This document shows, piece by piece, positions 7,038-63,616 of a stretch of 64,000 bases of DNA. Both the position numbers and the translations under genes were made by a program. The notes beneath the pieces are model-generated. The model did not search any database. It was given only the letters and a program-made list of their open reading frames with translations, and was not told the origin of the DNA. Source of the stretch: Membranipora membranacea (taxonomy: Eukaryota > Bryozoa > Gymnolaemata > Cheilostomatida > Membraniporidae); assembly GCA_914767715.1 (NCBI GenBank), contig OU612072.1:806001-870000 (forward strand), written 5' to 3'. Numbering within the stretch: position 1 is the first letter of the stretch; each line of letters starts with the position of its first letter.

Positions 7038-9658
7038 ATGGTAGCATGTATTTGGTCATTGAGGTGGGCGGCAGTGATATGCACTTCGGTAATGACTCTA
7101 CTGCAATCGTCAGCTACAGGTGAGTTACAATTTTCCCTACAGATACTACATTTATGATAAAATATCTTAATCAACTAGGATGAGAAATATACACCTGAGG
7201 GTGCTTAAGGCTGGAATCATCAGTCGTGAAAACTCTTCCAAGCATGCGAACTAACAAATCTCGCTCCTGGCAGTAGAGCTCCCTGACTGATTGCACCATC
7301 CCACCATTCCCAATCTAGAATGGGTTGATGGTGTTGTCTAGTCAGAAATTACTAGTCATAAGTTTGATATATCCCGCATCAATTTTTAACAGCTCTTCCA
7401 TCCCTCTGAAACTTGTTCATCATCCAGAACTTTTATGATCACAAATGATATTGACACTATAAATGATGTTTCACATTCTTGATGCAGGAAATGAGATGAA
7501 ATTTTAGAGGTGCTTACTCTAAATAGTGCCACAACTACTGGTGAAAGCTTTTATCTCGGAGAACCACTCACAATAACATGTCAAACCTCAGAGATTCCTG
7601 CTGGGAAACCATATACTTTGTATATCAAAGTAGGGACAGAAACAGTACAATGTTTTCGTCTAGCTGGTACTTGGAGTTTCAGTAAATATTTGCTGGTTCT
7701 CATCGACCCACCTGTTGTTGGGGATGATCAGTGCAACTTACCAAAGCATGATAACACAATGACAATCAAACTAGAAATCACCCAGCAGCTTTCTTCTCAA
7801 CCGATAACATGTCTCAGTGCAAAATATGAGACACCAACCTCTCCAATTGAGGTCAAACCTATATTAAGTGAGTGAGTGAAATAATATCATCAAATGTAGC
7901 ATATTAATCACCAGAGCTGCAAGGACTGCCCCCAAACAAGATTGGTGTCAGTTCACTGTAGAAGAAAATGTTGAATCTCAGTGTCTGCAAACAATTAGGT
8001 AACAATGCCGAGATTTAGGCCTTATTTTTTTACCATCAAACTATATGAATATCAATGGGCAAACATTTTCCCAGTAATTATATTTCATTTATACAGTACC
8101 ACCGAGGAATCTCATGATATCAGTAGATAAGGACCCTGTAGTGGAGAACGAAACTATCACTGTCAGCTGTCAGTCAGACTCTCCTAAAAGCTCTTACTTA
8201 TATGGTAGCTTTAAATTACATTACAGACACTACTGCAGGTTTATACAACATGTTACCCATCAACTTGTCAGAAATCATCAGAAATTGCGATGCATTTATT
8301 TGTAACACATAATATAACGGAAAAACCTTACCAAGAGAACTGTACACTGTGGAAGATGTTATATAAGAATCTACAGACAGTCGATGACTTATATATATGA
8401 GAATTAGTATTGGCCACAATTCATTATTATTTTGATGTCTAACACAGCATTGATCAAAGAATCTGGAGGAATGATGTCATTACCTGGTGGATCATACACT
8501 ACAAGCCCAGCAGACAGAGATGGTTTTACTGTACGCTGTACAGAACGAGGACATAGTGACTGGCCCCACAAAGATGATTTGGTTAAGACAAAAGAAATCA
8601 GACCTCAATGTAAGTCCCATTAAGCTTGGTTACATGTGCATGGAAAAGCTTAGCTAAAGCTGTCTCAATTATTCATGACCTAAAGCTGGAATTCTCAAAT
8701 TTATGCCTAGAAACGATGGAAATCTTTTTATTAGTTTAACTGGTATTCCTGCTTCGATTTCAGATATCACCCGCAACTGGGATCATACAGAATCAAGATC
8801 TGTAGATAATAACCCCGAATCTCCAACTCCACTGAAATGCGATATAGAGGGTTATCCTACACCCACTTACTCCTGGAGATCTAGTTTAACAGATATCACC
8901 TCAACAAAGACAAGCACGCTAACTTTCAGCAATATCTCTAGAAATAAAGGAGATGAAGAAGAAATTAGATGTATTGGAACAGTTCAAGTAGGTGGTGAGT
9001 TAAATTTACAAAACTAATAATCTGAATTTTCTCCTTTCAGCTTATTGATTCAACTCTTCTGTAACTTTGTTATAGCTTTATTGTCACAAATTGATATCAA
9101 GATAGCCTGAGACGTGTATGGTAATCCTTTATCAGAACCTCATCTTGACTTGACAGCCAAAGTTTGTTTAGTTTGATATGCATCATAGTTATCATTGATT
9201 GGTATTTTGAGCTATTGTGAGAAATGGCCAATTTTCTTGTCTAAATAACTTTATTTATTTTCTCCACCTGTGGTAGGACTGACCAACAGGGAATTTTGTT
9301 TTTAATCAGAAAATCTTAGTTATATTTTGGGAATTAGTTATCAATAGATTTGGGAATGGGTTTTCAAACCAGTTGTGAAATATAAAAATGTGGTTTAATT
9401 TGTCTCGAATTTGAAATACGCAATTCAATGTTATCACCTATTATTGAACCCCAGTTGATGCAGGTAGGCTGGTAATTTTCAATATCTCTTTTTTCCTCTC
9501 TTTTAGGTTTAAGTCCATTATCTATTACCTGGCATATCATATGGAAAGACACCAGATTAACTAACACTAATCCACCAATTGGAGCAGTTATAGGGGGAGC
9601 TTTGGGAGGAGTAGCTCTGCTTCTCATTGTTATCATTGGTATCTGGTATTGGAAATAA
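7038..9658 (+). CDS. Ig-superfamily single-pass membrane protein, 364 aa, 6 exons
   Basis: Exons: 7038-7119, 7508-7867, 8097-8204, 8448-8609, 8764-8994 and 9507-9658. All introns are GT-AG and phase 1, and the spliced frame is open throughout. Exon 1 encodes a signal peptide (residues 1-27, starting MVACIWSLRW). Residues 28-147 form a first Ig-like domain with paired cysteines (TITCQTSE, PITCLSAKYE). Residues 148-237 form a second, split over two exons (VSCQSDSP, FTVRCTE). Residues 238-314 form a third (LKCDIEGYPTPTYSW, IRCIG). Residues 339-363 are a membrane helix with small-residue motifs (GAVIGGALGGVALLL). The TAA comes one codon after the helix. The broken upstream copy continues into a basic tail at this point, so this copy has probably lost its tail; a remnant tail exon lies at 9873-9893. 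The likely role is cell-surface recognition or adhesion; no ligand can be inferred. Symmetric phase-1 exons are typical of shuffled Ig domains. Confidence 0.82.
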
Positions 9659-46923: not shown

Positions 46924-47852
46924 TCAACATTGATAAGAATTACAATGATTACTCTCTATACTGGGCCCATAGCACCCAGCCATACTCGCTCCAGGACCTG
47001 AGGTGTGACACGTTCTCTCTCTGGAATGTGTACCACCTCCGCAGGTGAGTGTACACCTGCCCCAGTGTCCCCAATCTGACCATGAATTGTGTGATTCCTC
47101 TCTGGTATGACTAGGGGGATCAGAAGATCTCTGGCCTGTCCCAGGTCCATGGTGAGGCTTCTGTGGTGTTGGATGACGTGGTTTCTGTGTGGGGGGATGT
47201 GGTTTGTGTGTTGTCTGGTAGTATGGCCTTTGCTGTGGTGGGTTGTGAGGTTTTTGTGTAGGTCGGTATTGTGGCCTTGGTGTTGGTCGGTAGCGAGGTT
47301 TTTGTGTTGTTTGGTAGTGTGGTCTTTGCGGGGCTGGGTAGTGCTGTGGGTGTTGTGGGGCTCGGTGGTGTGGTGGGTATTGTGGTCGGTGTGTTGCCGG
47401 GTAAAGAGGCCTAGGGTAGTAAATTGGCCTCGCAGTGACAGGTGCAGTATACTGTCTCGGCGCAAGTGCAGGTGCCCTCAGCCAGGGAATGTGATTGTTT
47501 GAGCCGAAGGCAATCGCGTTAGAAGCATGCAGACTAGATATCTGTTGCTGTAACCAAGTCTTTCCAAACACTACGCCTGAAATCAAGAATACAAAGCAAT
47601 GCTATAGAATTTTGCAAAGTGTAGGTTGATTAAAAAATTAAATAACACAGTATCCTCTCAATGCATTTATTATGCAAAAACAGTCAACGGTAATCATAAA
47701 TCATCAAACTTTGTCGTCCTGAAAGTAATCCTGGATATGAACTATTCCATGACAGGGTGGTGAGCCGAAGGCTTTCGGAATATGAGCTGTTAGGTAAAGT
47801 GGAACTTACCAATAATTGTGACAAGTAGAGACAATTCTACCGTACACCTCAT
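46924..47852 (-). CDS. Secreted proline-rich TSP1 protein, 231 aa, 2 exons
   Basis: Exon 1 is 47852-47810 (ATG) and exon 2 is 47576-46924, with a GT-AG phase-1 intron. Residues 1 to about 20 are a signal peptide (MRCTVELSLLVTII..). Residues ~53-160 are a Pro/Tyr/His/Gln/Thr-rich region of short imperfect repeats of the type QKPxxPT/RPxYxPT, suggesting an extended, possibly O-glycosylated or cross-linkable spacer. Residues 178-231 are a TSP1 repeat (SWSDWGHWGRCTLTCGGGTH, then SRERTCH, GCYGPSIESNHC) ending the protein. It is a paralog of the 123-aa gene downstream; the proline-rich insert is the main difference. Other frames across the repeat are also open because of its periodic composition. 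AATAAA on the minus strand near 46701 could end the transcript. Confidence 0.85.
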
Positions 47853-50385: not shown

Positions 50386-53300
50386 CTAAGTCTGTGACTC
50401 AAGGACTTCTACATAACTAGCTTCATCTTCAATAGTAGTATACTTTCTCTCATCATCTTTATATGGTACAGGCTCCTCATAGTCAGACTTAGCACTCTGT
50501 GAGGGCTCCTCGTAGTCAGGCTTATCACATTGCGAGGGCTGACTATCGACACTCTGAGAGAGTGGGGTGGTCGGCTGAGTATCTACACAATGTGGTTGAG
50601 GAGTGGTCGGACGATGCAGTGCGGTGGGGAGATCGGTATATCGGACAGATGACTCAGGCTTTAGGTAATCGTTATTGTTGTTGTCATCATCGATTGATTT
50701 TGCATCGGAGGAGGAGAGATTCCTACAGAATGTGCTGTCTGCGTATGTGTATGTGTTATACAGGTCTGTGATTGAGGCGTACTCACAATCATCTCCTATA
50801 ATTATGATGATAATGAGTTTGTTTTCCACCGTAAGAAATGATGAAAAACATTTATAGGATATGGTTGGCTTAATAAATGCTCTCAAATAAAATTTTGAAC
50901 TGCAAAATTGAAAAAATGTATTTTGGGACTTGGTGGTCGTGGCTCTCAGAAGAATCCTTGCAGCGAGCGGAATGTTTGCGATACAAAGACTGCCTCTCAG
51001 GTACGAAAAAGTGTAAAAAGTGTTTAGGGTTACTAAAAATGGAATCATTGTCACATTGCTATAAGAACAGTACAGGGCTTGTCTCTTCTCGCCTTTACCA
51101 ACATGTTTTCTTCCGACCATCGAAATAATGATTCTGTACAACTGACTTATAATGGGGTTATTGCAGGAGTTGTCCCTTATTATAGGGGGCGCTGATCAGA
51201 TCAGATCATGAATTTGTATTTTTTATATATGTTATCATTGGACCACATCATAAAAACAAGACTTCTTAATTAAGCCACGTAGACAAAACATGTTTCAAAA
51301 TCAGTTACCCCTCTTAGAAATTTTAACACAGTTTGAGTTCTCTACTTATGAAAAATGAGAAAAACTCATAAAACCTACCAGGTTTTCTGTCGGGTAGCGG
51401 TGGTGGTCCATCAGTAAGACCGTGTAAATCAGACGGGCGGTGGTTAGATCTACCCCTCCTACTGCCTGACTTTCTATAAAAATTAATACAATACAATACA
51501 ACAATATCACACTAAATATTTTCCTGGTTAGTTTGCCGACCAGTAAGCGAAGAGGAAGGAGAGAAGAATTCTCTCTCTCTATCGATGGGGCGACGTACAG
51601 GACTAAGTCTCTCTACGTACAGGACTAAGTCTCTCTACGTACAGGACTAAGTCTCTCTACGTACAGGACTAAGTCTCTCTACGTACAGGACTAAGTCTCT
51701 CTACGTACAGGACTAAGTCTCTCTACGTACAGGACTAAGTCTCTCTACGTACAGGACTAAGTCTCTCTACGTACAGGGCTAAATCTCTCTACGTACAGGA
51801 CTAAGTCTCTGTAAATCCTCCATGCTTTATTTCAGAGCCAGTTAACAAATATAGCATGTAGCCAAAATATTTGGCTGCATCATAAATCTTCTCTTCTTCT
51901 ATGAGGGTGAATACTAAATGACTAACTAAACTAAAATCCTAATATATCATGTTGGTTAGTCCATAGGAAGTTTGATGTAAACCTACCTCACTGCAGCACA
52001 GATTCGCTTTCTCTTTAGGAAGACGACGAGACACACAGACTGTACCATGACCGCACCGACTACAGCCACCGCTATGACCAGCGTCTGATTCATTGTCTGA
52101 GATGTACCTCCGGTCCTTCCTGGTAATGTCTCTGTGGTTGACTGCTGGCTGCTCGACGATACCCGAGTCAAAGTTGGGCTGTCCACTGGTGATGTAGTCA
52201 TTGCCACCACTGTGGTTGTCACAGTGACGGCTGATGAAGCTGTTGTTGTAGCCCCTGTTGTTGTTGCTGTTGCTGCTGCTGTTGTTTCTGTTGACGTTGC
52301 CGCTGTTGTTGGTTGTGTTGTTGTTGATGTTGTTTTTGTTGTTGTTGTTGTTGTTGTTGTTGTTGGTGTTGGCCCTGGTATTGTAGTCAATATTGCTCCA
52401 GGATAGTCAATTACTGTTAGAAATATAAATGATTATTTTTTGAATTATCAGGTTTCATTTGATGACGATAATGATTCCAAATCACAGCGTGGAATATACA
52501 CCTATTAAACAGAAACGAGAAAGGATCATTGTGTTAAACTTTATAATGTGAGCTACTGTAACATTAGTGGTCAGAGGAATTTTTTCAAAATTCATATTTA
52601 GTCAGTTGATGCAAAACAAACTCAATGGCAAATAGCTGGGAATGCATTTGGTGCGGAAGACAGAAGCGCCTAAAAGTTTACGCCAAAGATAATTGAACGG
52701 GTTTTGTAGATATATCGGTTATCATTTTTGCGATCTTGACACTGCATGTAAGTGGTCTGAGTATTCTTGACTCACACTAGATGCATTCAAGTATTCCATT
52801 GGATCACTTATCTAGACACAGTTTCATAGACTGGCTCTTATGGTCTAACTAAGGGACTGTTTATAGCCTTATCATTGCACTTCTCACTGCGTTCTATTCA
52901 ATAACTCTAATAAAGCATTCTAATTTGAACTACTTACTGCCTGTTCCACATTCCCTGGTAAGATTACGCAGATAGTCCACCATTTCTCCTCTAGAGATAT
53001 CGTTCCTATCACAGGCCTGTGCTGATCCCCAGAAGTGCATTCTAGCGTAATCCTCACACTGAAGGTCTGTTATAGAAGAGTTCTGTAAGGCGGTCCTCTT
53101 CTGACTCAGACATGTCTCACCATGTGTAAACTGATAGAAGCGTGAGCATCTCTTAGCACAATCATAGTCATTACTACAAGTCTCAAAGTCTGACCAGGCT
53201 ACAAATACAAATTGAAACTTAGTGACTTTTAGTAAATTTCTGATAAATATCCGATAAATTTCCGGTATATTTCTGTATTGATCCATTACAATTGAGCGAA

Positions 53301-56300
53301 GAAATAGGTTATGCGTTTAGATGCACGTGTTGCATTGTTGGAAGATTTTGTGGAATCAATGGGCTTTATATAAGTTGTCTTCCTTATGCAAATTTTTAAA
53401 TGGGCACCCTCTTCTCATGAGAAAATTCAAGGCAAACATATCTCCTCTACTTTATGATAATATTATGTTCTTTTACAAATAAGGGAATGCGTACAAAACA
53501 TGATTCTTATAAGACTGGCTAAACCCGATTGAGTATGATTTGGACTACAATGTTGTCGTTTAAATTTTCACATTTATCAGCTACCACTCACTTTTACCGA
53601 TGCCAGCTGAACAGGTACTAAAGAAACCTCTTGATATCCTCAGAGGTCCACAGAACTCCAGATTCCCTGAGCCAATGCAGCCCTCGACAGGTCTGTTCTG
53701 TAATGATTAACAGCAATAAATAAAAGTAGCAAAGCAGACTTTCATATTCTACGCTATTTCAAGCAGGTGCATAATGCTTAGTTTCTCTTCCACGGATATT
53801 CTACTCTTCAAGGTTCGCTATAATGCATATAGTTTCTAGTGTATTAATAATGCATAGGGTTTAGAAAGCTATGGTATAGATAGATTAAATAAAAATATGA
53901 ATTTGATTTGCTATTCAGGGGCACTTTAAGGGCCAATGAGAAAATGCATAAATTCAAACCTGCAATTGTCATACCGAGGACCTCAAATCCCAACCACTAC
54001 ACACTACCCTGCTAGCCAGTACTATATGACTGATGTCATCAATCATTGATTTATATTTTTATCACTTGCTACCAAATATACACATTATAAATAACTAAAC
54101 GAGGATCACTCACTTTTCTCATACAATCAAAACACTCGTCCGAGGCTGAGAAACCAGGAATCGCTATCAAATATAGAGAAAAGCTACAGTGATGAGGTTA
54201 ACATACCGACCACTTGATATTTAGGCATTTGTGTTCAATTCAAGAAGATGATATATTATTGTCTGATGCATACTTTTCATCGTGTCAAAGTTACCACTTT
54301 TTTTGTTGCAAAACAAATTTTTCATTGCAACGGTACATACTCATCTGTTCGATCCAAGTTAACAGATAATCTCCGCCTCGCAATGAAAGTTGGAGGTAAT
54401 GTCATCTCAAATATTCAACAAACACACCCACTGTCCGCAAAATATGGGCAGTGTCTGTGTCTATTCCTCCCTAACACAGCTAATGTGATGCCATGGTGTG
54501 ATATACCTATAGTAGTTGGTTCTGTTGGTTCCGGAGTTGCTGAGGGTATTGTTGTGACGTCAGATCCAGGATAATCGATGACTGCAAAAACAGGAAAATT
54601 TTTACCATACTCTCCAATGTACAATTTCATACTTAATGGATTTGATTTTAGGGGGTCATAATTAGTTTCTAATATTTAGATGTAATTTAACAATAATAAA
54701 ATTGCACAAGTAGATAGTGCACAGGGGGAGATTCGTCTTATCTCATTATTTTAATCCACATGTAAAGCTTGCCGATCTACTGACCAATATATATGCTCTC
54801 TTGTCTCAATGTCAAGGGGTAAGGTAGGCATGTGAGCATGATTATATGTATGCTGTTTGTTATCTTAGGTGGGCTTGTCAACCTGGCTTGTCTGTAGAAA
54901 CAAATCGACTTCCTGATATATTGAGAGCTCTTCAAATATAAGTCCAGTTATCTCTACTCAGTAGAGTACATGGAACACTTGACAATGGTTTTTGAGTTCC
55001 AGAAAACCAAAATTGGACTTTTATGGATTGTTGATATCTAAATTCCAAACATCACGATACTAGATAAAATTTGAAGAGCTTTGTTTTTATCCTGAGGGAC
55101 AGACAGACAGACAGAGTAGCCACTCACTGCCGGGTTCACACTTCCTCGTTAAATTCTGTAAGTACTGAGGCATTTCTCCTCTACTGATATCGTTCCTATC
55201 GCAGGCTACACCTGATCCCCAGAAGTGCATCCTGGCGTAGTCCTCACACTGTAGATCAGTCACAGACCAGTCCTGTAGGGCGTTCCTCTTCGCGTTCAGA
55301 CATGTCTGACCTTCCTGTTGCTGGAAATACCGTGCACATCGTTTGGCGCACTCGAAATCGTTACTGCATGTCTCAAAATCACTTGCAGCTGGAACAATGT
55401 TAAAAATGTGTTAGAAATTTCTTACTGAACAATGATGATTTATCCAGGGGTCTGTTATCCATCATTCATATTCAGAAGAAATAATTGATTTCATTCAGAA
55501 TGTTTCATCCAAGGTTTCTCATTGACAAACCTTCCTATATTAGCTTTTTGACAACAAACTTTATCATTGCAATAATTAATTGTCTTCAATCATGTCAGCT
55601 CTGCACCCTTAACATACGTACTTTTTCCGATGCCGTTAGCACATAAATTAAAGAAGCTGCTTGAAAGTCTCAGCGGGCCACAGAACCTGTTACCTCCAGC
55701 CCACTCACATCCGTCCACCGGTCGGTTCTGTCAAACACAAGCTCAGTAAAACTACAGGCATAACCTAGTGAGAATGGGGGGGGGGGGAATTATGGCTCAA
55801 GAATTTTGGACCCTATTCTTATCCTGGCAAAATAATGACAAGAAATTCCAGAAGGTTAGCTCTGAAAGATTTCCTAAGTTTCACACCAAAGCTGCCCCAA
55901 ATCTTCCTCCTCCACAGACAATGCACTTTGAACAAGACATCATCACTGATGATTTACTGGCTTTTATCCTGTATGTTACCCAGAGCCAGGTTTGTTCAGA
56001 TCAAGACTATCAGTGCAGCGTGGTGGCAATGAAAGGACTTTGCAACTCAAAGTAGTGTTGCCAACAATGGTCGACAGTGGTAAATAGTCGCTACCATCCG
56101 AGACTTGTTGATGGTATGATTTAGTGATAAAAAAACAGTAATCAAGGAAACCACTGCAGATTGCAGGGTGTCGAAATTGAAAAAACATGTTGATCGCTGT
56201 TTTGATTCCATTACTGGCAGCTTCAGTATAATTATAACTCAGTAAACTTGTGATATAAACCCTGTACCCATCTCGTCATTATTCCTCACCAAACGTAAAC

Positions 56301-57046
56301 AGCTGAAACAATCGTCAGACGCACTGAACCCCTCACATCCTGTAGGTAGAAGAAAGGTTAAAATTAGCAAAATGTACTAAAACAGAGAGGTAAAGACATA
56401 TTTGTTGAAATGAAGACAATTTGACTTTGGTTCTTGAAGGAAAAAAATATCACATTAATTGAGGTCATCAGCCAATATCAATATTAAATTCTAAAAATTT
56501 TTCATTTTGAACCATACATATTTTATCTTGAGATATTTTTCCTGTCTAACCATCAGTGGATAATGCTAGCCAACACAACCCAATAACAATGTTGTACTAT
56601 TCATTTGATTTTGACTCAACATGTTTTATAAAAAATTTCCGTAAAAAATAAATGATATTTGCGAGTCACAGGGAGTCACACTTAACATGGTAGCCATGCT
56701 CGCGTGATAACTTTCAATCCACACCCAAGCTTTGGTCGCACTGGAAAGCCATTACATGCGGACTAGTAATGAATACCTGGTGGGATTAAAGGTGTTGTCC
56801 TTAAGAGTATGCATGGAATTCAAGGGAATTTGTGTTATTAAGTGTCATATCTTAATGAATACTGTAGTGACTAAACAGTTAAAGTTGATGATGAAATGCT
56901 GAAAAATTGTTCCTATCTAACTCCAATAGTTCTTACCAAACCAAACAATTGGCATTCCTAGTAAGAACGTAACACCCACCTCTCAATGAAGAAGATACAT
57001 ACAGGTATGCAATAACCAAGCATATTCCCTGTAGATTCCACGCCAT
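50386..57046 (-). CDS. Putative receptor: two i-type lysozyme-like domains, Thr-rich stalk, membrane helix, phosphotyrosine-type tail (635 aa, 11 exons)
   Basis: Minus-strand exons: 57046-56980, 56339-56290, 55727-55622, 55388-55128, 54581-54507, 54163-54114, 53697-53592, 53198-52938, 52413-51987, 51473-51379 and 50795-50386. All junctions are GT-AG and every phase matches; the total is 1908 nt. Exon 1 is a signal peptide (residues 1-22). Residues 23-161 and 187-325 are tandem copies of one domain, each split over exons of 50, 106 and 261 nt. Motifs are GFSASD(D/E)CF.C, NRPV(D/E)GC, FCGPLR(L/I)S, SDFETCSND..CAKRC and LQCEDYARMHFWGS. These match the invertebrate-type lysozyme/destabilase pattern (CGxFQI, CA.D..C...C, CE.(F/Y)AR.HNGG). 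Each copy is followed by an IIDYPG linker. Residues ~326-435 are a Thr/Ser/Ala-rich mucin-like stalk, and 436-458 a membrane helix followed by KRKR. The tail has PPPLPDRKP (491-499), VRYTDL (ITIM form, Tyr552), DYLKP (Tyr543), two DYEEP (Tyr594, 605) and YTTI/YVEV (Tyr618, 627). The likely role is surface recognition with intracellular signalling; ligand unknown. Confidence 0.85.
51595..51812. repeat. 22-bp minisatellite, 10 copies
   Basis: GTACAGGACTAAGTCTCTCT plus AC in ten near-identical copies, one every 22 bases. It lies in the intron between the membrane-helix exon and the first cytoplasmic exon of the lysozyme-like receptor. Confidence 0.95.
52245..52365. repeat. Trinucleotide-rich tract encoding the poly-Thr stalk
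   Basis: Runs of TTG/TGT on the plus strand (ACA/ACC/ACT codons on the minus strand) encode the Thr-rich stalk of the receptor. The purest block is near 52333-52362. Confidence 0.85.
53935..54030 (-). mobile_element. Possible tRNA-derived SINE fragment
   Basis: The minus strand shows GCAGGGTAGTGTGTAGTGGT and, ~45 bases later, GCAGGTTTGAATTT, weakly resembling A and B boxes. Intronic in the receptor gene. Confidence 0.4.
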
Positions 57047-58468: not shown

Positions 58469-61400
58469 TTAGCACAATCCGCAAGATTTTTTACATTTGG
58501 TAGACATGAATTCCTTTCTAAGTGAGCAGTAGCCTTTCTTAGCCCAGGTTCCACAATAGTTTGTATACTGGTCAGTGCAGTCTACCTCATCTGTATTACC
58601 ATCACTGTTAGTACTGGTTCGACAGTGTCCACATGATTCTGCACAGTTACGCTTCATATACCCAGCATATAAGTCACAGCGCTTAGCTCGAGCCCACAGG
58701 TTACAGTACTTATTCTTATCTTTACAATCCGTCTGTTGTGATGAGGAGCCTGAGTTTTCACTTGTGGTACGTGAGTCACTATCAGGGCAGTGGCCGCATG
58801 TCCGAGCACAGTTAGCTTTCATGTAGTACTGACTCTTCTCACACTGTCCGACTTTTTGCCAGATACGACATCTCTCCTCACTGATATCCTCACATCTCTG
58901 ACTCTCCTGTCGACTCAGCCCCTCATTCTTACGTCTATCAGGACGAGCTATGATCACTTTGGTCGTCACTGGCCTCTCTGTCGGTCTCTCGGTCGGCCTC
59001 TCTGTCGGTCTCTCGGTCGGCCTCTCTGTCGGTCTCTCGGTCGGTTGTTGAGTTCTTCTTTGCTCTTCTGACGTGGTGCTGGTAGGGGCTTGTGTGGCTG
59101 CTGCTGTTTGTGACTGATCCCCACATACGTTACAGCTCAGCGGACAGAGAGCGTGCATGACCCGAGTACGGGAGTCACAGTATCCAGCCTCTGCCCAACG
59201 AGAGCAGTGCTCTCTCGTGTCGTCACAACTCTTCGTTTTATCAACAACCTCAACTCGAGTGGAACCGGCTGAGCTTTGTGAAGAAGAATGATCTGAGCCT
59301 TGATTAGATTCTGAGTCTCTGTCGTATCCCCGATCCCTGTTCGACTCGGACTCTTGACCTCTGTCTGTCTCTTTGCTTCTATCTGACCCTTGACCTCTGT
59401 GGGTGTCTTTGTTTCTGTCAGAGCCCTGGTGACCGTTTGACTCGTGACCAGATTCAGTCTGCCCGTCCTCTCTGTCACGCTGACTTGCGTGTGATCCCCC
59501 TGCAGAGCTGGGAGTACAGATCTTACATGAGGCCTGGCAGTAAACTTTCATATACTCAGAACGTGACTCACAGTATCCTCCGTCTGCCCAAACCTTACAG
59601 TGCTGATTACTATCCACACAAGTCGCCTCCTCCTGCTCCTGCTCCTGCCTGGTAACACCACCAGAGGTCTCTGTCAGAGCATCATCTTTGTGATTGGCTG
59701 AACCAGCATCTCTAGTACCATCATTATCTGACAGGATCCTGTTTGATATTGTCTCTCCTGTGTTGCTGGATGATTCACAAACACCTTCAATAAATAAAAA
59801 ATACGTGAGATAGAACATTAACTAACATACTTATTTACTGGCTCACTTCATTTCACAATGGATGTGGTCTCTTGAAGATCAGACATCGGAATTCAGATAC
59901 TCTAAAAGAGTAAAGTATTCGCAGGAGGAATAGTTCGCCATTCCGCACATCATTAAAATATCTTACGTTCAAGCCTAGCTAAAATCCTCTCATCCACTTT
60001 ACTTGGACTTTCATCAAACGATTTCAGCGCTAAGCAGTATCTCTTAGTCCCCTTACCGCATGATTTTCCACAGTTCTCTTTCATGTAAGCTGGTTTCTGA
60101 TCACACATGCCATACTTAGCCCAGGTATCACAGAACTCTTGAGAGTCCTCACACACCCGTCCAGACACAGCTTGGTACCGAGGCTGACATTTACCACAGG
60201 CTGAGGGACAGTATTTAGACATATATCGGGTCTTAGCTGTACATAGTCCATGTGCCGCCCATATCAGACAGTATCTGTTAAAAGATCACAAGGTCATATG
60301 ATATAAACTTTTAATGCTGTTACTCAGTTTAGATAAGCAATTGGCAATTAAGCGACAGTCGTGGTCAAAACGTAAAACACTCAAATTTACGAGCAAATTG
60401 TAACCTAAGAAAAAATTAGGGTTTGTCTTCTCTAAAATTGAGAGAAGCCCATCAATGTTTTCACTCTGAAGAATCTTGGTATAACATTTAAATTGTGTTC
60501 AATTGTTTACAAGTATCAACAAGACCTTTTTCCTGTTTTTCTAATAGTGTTTCCATCGATATCAGTGCAGCATCTGACCTTCAAACTTATAAGTTACTTT
60601 GATATTACAAGTCTAGACTGCATACATCAAATATCTACCTATCTATCTAGCCTGTCTTGACAAGCTTTGTTGGCGGGGGGATGGGGGGAGTTTCAAGAGA
60701 TACAGACACCGCTGACTTACTCGCTGCTGTCGGAGCACTTAGAGTTAGACTCATACTGAAGCTGCTCTCCGGGTTTATTGTCTGTCTGTTTCTTCACACC
60801 ACACAATCCACATGAGTCTGGACAATGTGAGAACATGTAATCCTTCCTCTCATCACACTTACCATTATCCGCCCAAGATGAACAATATTCACTGCGGTCC
60901 TACAAATAAAACAGGAAATGTTGACTGAGACTATCACCTTGCACAACTTGCATTATCTGAAAAAAATCAATTCAGGTGTTCTTTCAATACCATATTTAGT
61001 GCCGTATGAACGACTCAAACTATTTTGTAACACCACGTAGGCCTACCCTTGTGTTGCACATGCACAAATACAGGGTAATCTTGATTCAGATGACAAACCG
61101 TGTACTCACAGCGCATCCTGAGGAAGCAGCTTGATCCTTTTGGAGAGATTCACCCTCACTTCCTCCAGTATTAGACTGAGATCCTGATGCTGGTGATTTA
61201 TTACATGAGTTACAGCTGGCAGGGCAGTTCTTACTCATGTACTCAGGCCGACTCTCGCATCTTCCTGTATAAAGTAACCATGCCAACAGGTAAAAATACA
61301 GGGACGGGATACAGTGAGAGGTTATATATGTAGCCTCTAGGAGCTGTTCAATTCAAAATTATTGCTGACCAGAAGTGATTACCGACTCATGAGAAAACCC

Positions 61401-63616
61401 TTTTTATAAAGTCACAGCTGGGTACTGAGAAGGTAAAAATATAGGTAAATTTGACAAGATAGTCTTATGGGTACTGTAAATATATGAAGTTAATCTCAAA
61501 ACAACAGAGAAAGTCACCAACATTTGAATGTTTAAAATTCTCTGAGAAAAAGGGCATATAATTACCACTGGGGAGTCCAGAATGTTGTATTGTGGGATTG
61601 CTTACCAGCATTAGCCCAGGCGTTACAGTATTGATGCATATCTCTGCACATTTTGTTGTCATCTGCCCCGGTACTGCCGCAGGTGTTACAGCTCTTCTTA
61701 CAGTTCTGTCTCATGTAGTCCTGAGACTCTGAGCTGTCACAGCTACCATGCCCCGCCCACACAGAGCAGAGATGGCTACCATCTACACATACAGCAGAAG
61801 GCTGAGCCTTCATGTGCATACTCTCTCTGTAATAACAATATGATGTGCTGTATTAGGGTGTTTCATAAGAAAATGTCTGTAGTTGTCCCCTTTTTATCAA
61901 GGTGAAGATAATTATTACTTGATGGCTTTCTAACCTCAAGGATGCGACACATCCATAGTAAGATGATAACAGGGTACATTGCGGCCTTCTTTAGGGACAG
62001 CCCAAATTGCCCGCTTTTAACTTAACAGTAAGGTGGATATAAATCAACACAACACAAGTTTGTTCAACATACGAAGGACCTTCTCCCATCCCTATACATA
62101 CAATCAAAGCAATCATATGATGAGGCATTATAGGCAATCAAAAGCTTACACCGAAAAAGAAAATATTATTATTATCAATTTATTTGCTGAGTATATCACC
62201 AACAATTATCACTGACTAGCATCCATCCACACTGTTTCCTGGTCTTATATTTATTTGTTCATGGTTGACGTTGTCTGACACACAGACTTTCAGTTTTGAT
62301 ATTTATTTGGGAAATTACCAAATCACTGTGAGCACTAATTTTAAGCTTTTAATTGTAAAAATAGGCGGGAACTTCTTTAGCAGGGTATGAGCTGCTGTTA
62401 GGGAAATCATTGTAGCAAATTGAAAGGAAAAGTAAAAAGAAGCCGACACCAAATATTGCAAAGAGAGACTCCAGTTATTATCATTATATAAGCTTCACCT
62501 GGTGGTATAATTAGAAGGTACGAGGAGCCTTCAACAGATCAGACAGTAAACGCTGTGATCTCATGTGATCATGTGATAGCATGTGATGTTATATATACAA
62601 TCGCTGATAACAACGCGAAATAGGCATTCACTATGAAAAATGGACAAGGATCAAAAAACTTACAGTGAAACATTCTGTGCTACTTGAAACTTCAGGCAAA
62701 CAACTCGATACTATCAGGTGTCTATAAAGTGGTCTATTTGTGAAGAGGAGTAAAAATTTTGCAGGAGAAAAAGTTTGCCATATCGTGCAGGGTTGAAAAA
62801 AGTTAAATTTAAAGCTAGCTTATATTTACACAGCCCCTTACTATTATATAAGCTGCTGGCTAAAATTTAGTCAACCTAGAACTAACTGAACTAAATTCTA
62901 GCTAAGTCATACTTCTTGGGCGGGGGGGGGGAGGGGGAGAAGGTATTAATTGGAGATCACTGACTGATATATTCCGTATCAAACAAGAGCGACACAGGTA
63001 AGTGACACTTATTATGACAGGTGTGATTCAGTCTGACAGATGGGTGGTGACACTTACTGGCAGGTGTTGCAGGATTTGGCACAGGTGCTTGTCATGTAAG
63101 ATTTTCTCTTCTCACACATGCCATTCTTAGCCCATGTGCTACAGTGTACATTACTGTCTGTACATTCACTGTACCTACTGCTACTAAAACACACAGCGCC
63201 ACATCATGGGGGAGAATTCACAGTGCAACATAGAGGGAGAGTTCAACTCTAATGTTTCTATATCGCTAACATTGAACTACAAACAGCATCAACTCACTGA
63301 CAGGGTGTACATGACCTTGACATATGGATGATCAGGATATGGTTAGCGACACACTCACAATCCTAGTGTTACAGCTGAGGTACTAAAACTAGGTAGGCGT
63401 GCAGACGTAATAATAAGGCATGTGGAGATAAGGCTCATGTCTATAACATAATATACTGGAATTCCTAGTTTAGCTGAATTGACTCCTATGATTGGCCAGT
63501 TGCTGGATATGGACTACAGCCTGTAATACACGATTCTCACCTCTGCCGGCTGTGAGAAGAGGAGGGGGAGAGAGCTTCGTCACTTTGATAACCATCTGTA
63601 GGAACCTCTGGAATCG
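58469..63616 (-). CDS. Multi-ShKT-domain protein, at least 11 domains, 5' end outside the window
   Basis: Minus-strand exons: 63616-63541 (first visible, phase 1 start, so the signal-peptide exon is further upstream), 63180-63058, 61826-61606, 61264-61110, 60899-60721, 60274-60057 and 59784-58469 (stop). All junctions match in phase, giving about 762 codons. Eleven ShKT domains follow the pattern C.D....C..WA..G.C.....YM...C..SC..C, for example CTDSNVHC..WAKNGMC in exon 2 and CTDQYTNYC..WAKKGYC at the C-terminus. The last exon alone has five full domains plus the end of domain 6. It also has Ser/Asp/Arg/Gln-rich spacers and six PTER repeats. Several introns cut inside domains. ShKT domains are six-cysteine modules of secreted matrix, enzyme-associated and venom proteins. 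The Lys-Tyr pair needed for potassium-channel block in ShK is not present at the aligned position of these domains (the residue before Tyr is mostly S, D, A, E or G). A structural or binding role is therefore more likely than a toxin. Confidence 0.88.
58972..59050. repeat. Coding tandem repeat (PTER x6)
   Basis: A 12/24-bp alternating repeat (GGCCTCTCTGTC / GGTCTCTCGGTC on the plus strand) encodes six PTER units between ShKT domains 8 and 9. The alternating codon choice shows it grew by duplication of a 24-bp unit. Confidence 0.9.
61835..63050. other. Intron of the ShKT gene, nothing further recognised
   Basis: A 1.2-kb intron between exons 63180-63058 and 61826-61606. It contains a G-run near 62921 and a repeated CATGTGAT motif near 62565. 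No coding segment seen. Confidence 0.45.

Follow-up and report, generated by a model that had tools for sequence, protein, structure and literature searches.

A bryozoan gene model joins two i-type lysozyme-like domains to a membrane anchor and a tyrosine-rich tail

The known i-type lysozymes are secreted enzymes that act through a catalytic Glu and a catalytic Asp. A 64,000-nucleotide stretch of the Membranipora membranacea genome (contig OU612072.1, positions 806,001 to 870,000; hereafter the window, by whose numbering the receptor gene is described) raises the question of whether this fold has also come to stand on a signalling membrane anchor. A preliminary description of the window had joined eleven exons in phase into a 635-residue receptor with two such domains in its ectodomain, and had read it as a lytic fold reused to sense. 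We rebuilt the gene from the sequence and recovered the same layout: 11 exons on the minus strand (57046..50386), all ten introns bounded by GT-AG with matching phases and ranging in size from 233 to 640 bases, and a spliced model of 635 amino acids with a single stop codon and no phase error. An alternative exon 1 donor at 57003 was rejected because it breaks the frame. When given the 635-residue protein, a spliced aligner returned the same 11 exons, which is a consistency check and not independent evidence. Open frames of this kind arose by chance in 0.9%, 0.4%, 0.15% and 0.13% of shuffles for exons 4, 8, 9 and 11, respectively.

Following the gene along the minus strand, exon 1 (56980..57046) supplies the start codon and a putative signal peptide (MAWNLQGICLVIAYLYVSSSLR); residues 1–22 resemble one in being a hydrophobic N-terminus, as judged by eye and not by a predictor, and the earlier assignment of a signal peptide stands to that extent. 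The first domain (D1) is spread over exon A (exon 2, 56290..56339, containing CFSCLRL), exon B (exon 3, 55622..55727) and exon C (exon 4, 55128..55388), the last of which encodes the C-terminal part of the destabilase domain. A linker (exon 5, 54507..54581) leads to the second domain (D2), which repeats the arrangement as exon A (exon 6, 54114..54163, equal to exon 2 in length and phase), exon B (exon 7, 53592..53697) and exon C (exon 8, 52938..53198). Exon 9 (51987..52413) encodes a Thr-rich stalk, the transmembrane helix and a KRKR stop-transfer sequence. The single helix and the mucin-like stalk of the preliminary description are both borne out here: the only strong hydrophobic stretch in the protein spans residues about 437–457, is followed by KRKR, and is separated from D2 by the Thr-rich segment. 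Exon 10 (51379..51473) encodes the initial portion of the tail and contains PPLPDR, which we take to be a class II SH3-type motif; the tyrosine-rich exon 11 (50386..50795) carries the tail on to the stop codon. A 33-bp tandem repeat within exon 11 (50471..50540) is in frame, and its 11-residue unit doubles the sequence DYEEP. Intron 9, between the helix and tail exons, contains a 22-bp tandem repeat of 9.9 copies with 97% match (51593-51810). With its helix and stop-transfer sequence in exon 9, the modelled product departs from a secreted protein free of a membrane anchor; as a gene model, the locus holds as a type I membrane protein with two Destabilase domains, a Thr-rich stalk, a helix and a tyrosine-rich tail.

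Other open frames in the window encode further domains. ShK domains lie on the same strand as the receptor gene (120 bits over five stretches at 58469-59821, and 45.6 bits at 61562-61852), a thrombospondin type 1 domain (33.6 bits) is found in the open frame 46924-47601 behind a long Pro/His-rich repeat, and the open frame 8679-9017 has a weak immunoglobulin-domain match under the curated cut-off.

The two ectodomains are identified by profile. The Pfam family Destabilase (PF05497) matches the 635-residue protein twice, at 54 bits against a curated cut-off of 26.2 (E 2.4e-14), and is the only Pfam family above cut-off in it, which confirms the destabilase/i-type lysozyme-like assignment made previously. 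Solved structures matched by sequence are lysozymes only (8bbu, named Lysozyme, E 9e-4; 2dqa, E 0.02); a fold prediction covering exon C of one domain only gave a mean pLDDT of 51.5. D1 and D2 show 69% identity across 145 compared residues, and an exon triplet of 50, 106 and 261 nt recurs in both with the same lengths and phases. As modelled, they are a duplicated three-exon module that arose within the gene. The duplication is an old one, because a DNA comparison aligns the 261-base exon alone and the synonymous sites are near saturation; with dN of 0.24–0.27 against dS of 1.1 (LWL85) or 4.7 (NG86), purifying selection seems to act on both copies.

A PF05497 profile search of the organism's own genome (339 Mb, 18 contigs) returned 17 places; the window exons are absent from these and were recovered by a protein search of the genome. 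The nearest relatives of the window gene are five of the 17, arranged in tandem on contig C1 at 14.411–14.434 Mb and here called g1 to g5, the models of which were read by hand. Two of them repeat the plan of the window gene with one domain in place of two: g4 (399 residues, 57.9 bits) and g5 (436 residues, 51 bits) score above the Destabilase cut-off, have all splice sites in phase, and encode a long tail behind a hydrophobic N-terminus, one domain and one helix; for the first exon of g4 we selected among several candidates. After the domain, g2 and g3 have helix exons that are almost the same and encode a short tail. In-frame stops interrupt the lysozyme-like exon of g2 (L025, C1:14414901-14415131) and the helix exon downstream is open, and g2 is probably a pseudogene beside its near twin g3. 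A similar short-tailed product is conceivable for the window gene: retention of intron 9 places a stop straight after KRKRICAAVR behind the helix (51983-51987) and would give a possible isoform resembling g2 and g3. The remaining gene, g1, can be read onward into an exon whose hydrophobic C-terminal end is a possible GPI signal. Downstream of g5 lies a 553-residue open frame (L027, C1:14436661-14438319) that resembles a THAP-domain transposase-type protein.

Relatives were also sought in the protein database. Region 20-345 of the 635-residue protein found no match there, and a profile built from four domains found three, all of them single-exon pieces. P0001 and P0002 carry the g5 and g4 exons of the same genome; P0003 comes from another source, corresponds to no match of the protein search of the genome, and is 65% identical to D2 in its domain exon. 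After the last cysteine P0003 reads GTDSK and D2 reads GTGSK, which fits a conserved splice donor at this point.

The other 12 PF05497 places provide a comparison for the membrane anchor. In each, the last domain exon reads on to a stop without a helix, and it is on this ground, not on signal peptides, that we label them secreted-type. Of the 12, 9 stop no more than about 25 residues past the last cysteine, and C6:2042928, C8:7089413 and C2:1285840 stop later; L041 and L042, the two that were read of 12 further weak lysozyme-like places, both reach a stop without a helix as well. The membrane-type genes have a phase-1 donor at the end of the last domain exon. Left unspliced, that exon too runs into a stop a few codons on (SE-stop in g3 and g4, SK-stop in window D2), so a stop after the domain was rejected as a separator of the two types, and the case for splicing rests on the donors, the phases and the downstream helix exons. 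We queried the 1.5 kb past each domain with a strict scan, in which an exon counted when its phase-1 acceptor had a pyrimidine tract and an open helix was followed by basic residues. Such an exon follows the domain in 4/6 membrane-type genes (window, g2, g4 and g5) and in 0/12 secreted-type genes; the background rate was 7/484 stretches of the fetched regions and 9/250 in the window, both counts including the genes themselves (the C1 genes in the former). The strict scan misses two membrane-type genes: g1, which is without an ordinary helix, and g3, which has a weak acceptor tract and a helix exon that nearly duplicates the one in g2.

The membrane-type domains form a group of their own by descent. 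We built a tree of 21 rows, comprising 18 family domains or exons and 3 solved lysozymes, with g2 and C2:1285840 omitted; the membrane-type rows fall on one side of a branch with support 100/99 that is present in 100% of 200 bootstrap trees, and the clade takes in one exon from outside this genome. Since the tree is rooted at its midpoint, a single origin of the membrane-type genes from a secreted ancestor is left as compatible with it and not proven. The receptor architecture put forward in the preliminary description is strengthened by this clade, by the shared plan of g4 and g5 and by the strict helix scan, and we hold the architecture and the family assignment with high confidence.

Have these domains kept the means to cleave? 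In the leech i-type lysozyme the catalytic residues are Glu14 and Asp26. Secreted-type and membrane-type genes have in common an exon boundary just past CxxCxxx, after which the codons align without gaps, and the catalytic Glu position is the second residue after this boundary. The Glu is kept in 10/11 resolved secreted-type paralogs, the twelfth, C2:1285840, being unreadable at that position; the exception, C8:12809080-12809340, has Gln, so loss of the Glu happened outside the membrane clade too. It is lost in 7/7 membrane-type domains, where Arg (D1, D2 and g5), Asn (g4) or Gln (g1, g3 and the disrupted g2) takes its place; as members of one clade, the membrane-type genes do not give independent counts. 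The Asp26 position is occupied by Ala in D1 (exon 3), Ser in D2 (exon 7) and other residues in g5, g1 and g3; g4 retains Asp. With neither the catalytic Glu nor the Asp present in either copy, we file D1 and D2 as members of a homologous fold family and not as active lysozymes. Loss of catalysis in the membrane-type domains is very probable from these replacements. The earlier notion of a lytic fold reused to sense gains its first half from the replaced Glu; that the fold now senses, and what it would bind, we infer.

The cytoplasmic tail of the window protein comprises 177 residues, 11 of them Tyr. Shuffling predicts 1.3 occurrences of Yxx[ILVM]; this tail has four (P 0.027), and the motif is not in excess in the g4 or g5 tails. 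Two Y[DE][EDN] sites (P 0.06) are present; one ITIM-like site shows no excess (P 0.27), and the spacing of the two C-terminal tyrosines is, by eye, unlike that of a canonical ITAM. The class II SH3-type motif, single in this tail, is no more than expected by chance alone (P 0.20). A PxxPx[KR] motif occurs once in each of the three long tails, about 35 to 70 residues past the helix (P 0.20, 0.10 and 0.20). The long tails align poorly with one another, the best local matches reaching E 0.01 for g4 and g5 and E 0.007 for the window gene and g4, uncorrected for composition. No relative of the exon 11 tail was found in the protein database, which is weak evidence given that the family matches there were single-exon pieces. 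The SH3-ligand and phosphotyrosine motifs described previously are thus present, and individually they lie weakly above or close to chance. Whether the tail signals we regard as evenly balanced, and it is the least secure step of the reading.

Against this background, the gene could be read in other ways. That the model is an artefact, with ectodomain and helix/tail exons on separate transcripts and the domain 2 exon ending at a stop in intron 8, we consider very improbable. Exon 8 left unspliced does meet a stop three codons on, and with intron 9 retained the protein would stop just past the helix; these observations are countered by the continuous phase at 10/10 junctions, by g4 and g5, which repeat the exon order on a different contig, and by the distribution of phase-1 helix exons among membrane-type and secreted-type genes. 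An equally slight probability attaches to a membrane-anchored lysozyme that is still active through shifted acidic residues, namely the Asp or Glu of NRPV[DE]GC. D1, D2, g4 and g5 do conserve an acidic residue, Asp or Glu, near the lost Glu, and the Asp retained by g4 at the second catalytic position counts against a dead receptor. This reading has to accommodate a Glu position occupied by Arg, Asn or Gln in every membrane-type domain, as fixed by the shared exon boundary, together with Ala and Ser at the second catalytic position of D1 and D2.

A tethered, dead lysozyme that serves adhesion, scavenging or endocytic uptake is unlikely, though less so than the two readings above; here the tail would act in trafficking through Yxx-hydrophobic motifs and in cytoskeletal linkage instead of tyrosine signalling. 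Yxx-hydrophobic motifs also serve endocytosis, and of the motif classes in the window tail Yxx[ILVM] exceeds chance most clearly; the mucin-like stalk and the existence of short-tailed relatives would suit such a role. Set against it, the doubled DYEEP and the PxxPx[KR] motif of all three long tails look more like SH2 and SH3 ligands.

On balance, we favour, by a modest measure of confidence, a non-enzymatic type I surface receptor with two i-type lysozyme-like domains, derived from an i-type lysozyme and probably no longer able to cleave glycan. As to the direction of change, we infer that the family arose most likely once from a secreted i-type lysozyme, when the last domain exon, stop-ended in secreted genes, gained a phase-1 junction with a transmembrane exon, or in one paralog with a GPI-like exon, and the catalytic glutamate was lost. 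The fold would have retained its ligand groove and may bind peptidoglycan, a chitin-like glycan or a protein without cutting; a glycan ligand is a tentative choice, somewhat under even. Tandem domains on a mucin-like stalk could lend reach and avidity, and clustering might allow a Src-type kinase to phosphorylate the tail tyrosines. The phosphotyrosines and the proline motif would then recruit SH2 and SH3 adaptors and lead to phagocytosis or immune signalling, for which the short-tailed and GPI-like paralogs may act as partners or decoys. A broader proposal, which we advance with still more reserve than the glycan ligand, is that these genes represent an unrecognised class of animal surface sensors: a non-catalytic, anchored i-type lysozyme fold, which tandem duplication diversified into tyrosine-signalling forms with long tails and others that are short-tailed or GPI-like, in the manner of paired immune receptors.

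The window gene has PF05497 and the cysteine frame in common with the secreted i-type (destabilase) lysozymes (8bbu, 2dqa, 3ab6), and the exon boundary with the secreted-type paralogs of its own genome; unlike the secreted enzymes, it has both catalytic residues replaced, the domain doubled, and a stalk, helix and tail added. Binding by lysozyme folds without catalysis has precedents in SPACA3 (sperm lysozyme-like) and alpha-lactalbumin, which resemble the window gene in this respect and differ from it in their c-type fold and in having no tyrosine-motif receptor tail. Peptidoglycan recognition proteins (PGRPs) are built on an amidase fold and bear other tail motifs. A Pfam scan found no PGRP domain in the window protein. 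If our proposal is right, the analogy with a transmembrane PGRP of the PGRP-LC type would lie in a non-catalytic peptidoglycan-enzyme fold set on a signalling anchor. Transmembrane PGRPs occur in an annelid, as one report indicates (PMC5117596). A limited search of the topical literature, by title or abstract opening, found no membrane-anchored i-type lysozyme receptor; with due caution, none is known to have been described previously.

Should the proposal hold, it would add a second route, beside that of the PGRPs, from a cell-wall enzyme to an animal receptor, here starting from what is known as a secreted effector enzyme. The change would be readable in the genes themselves, where a domain exon spliced to a helix exon and a lost catalytic residue meet in the same clade, and the secreted-type paralogs that keep the catalytic residues in the same genome would offer direct controls for binding and cleavage.
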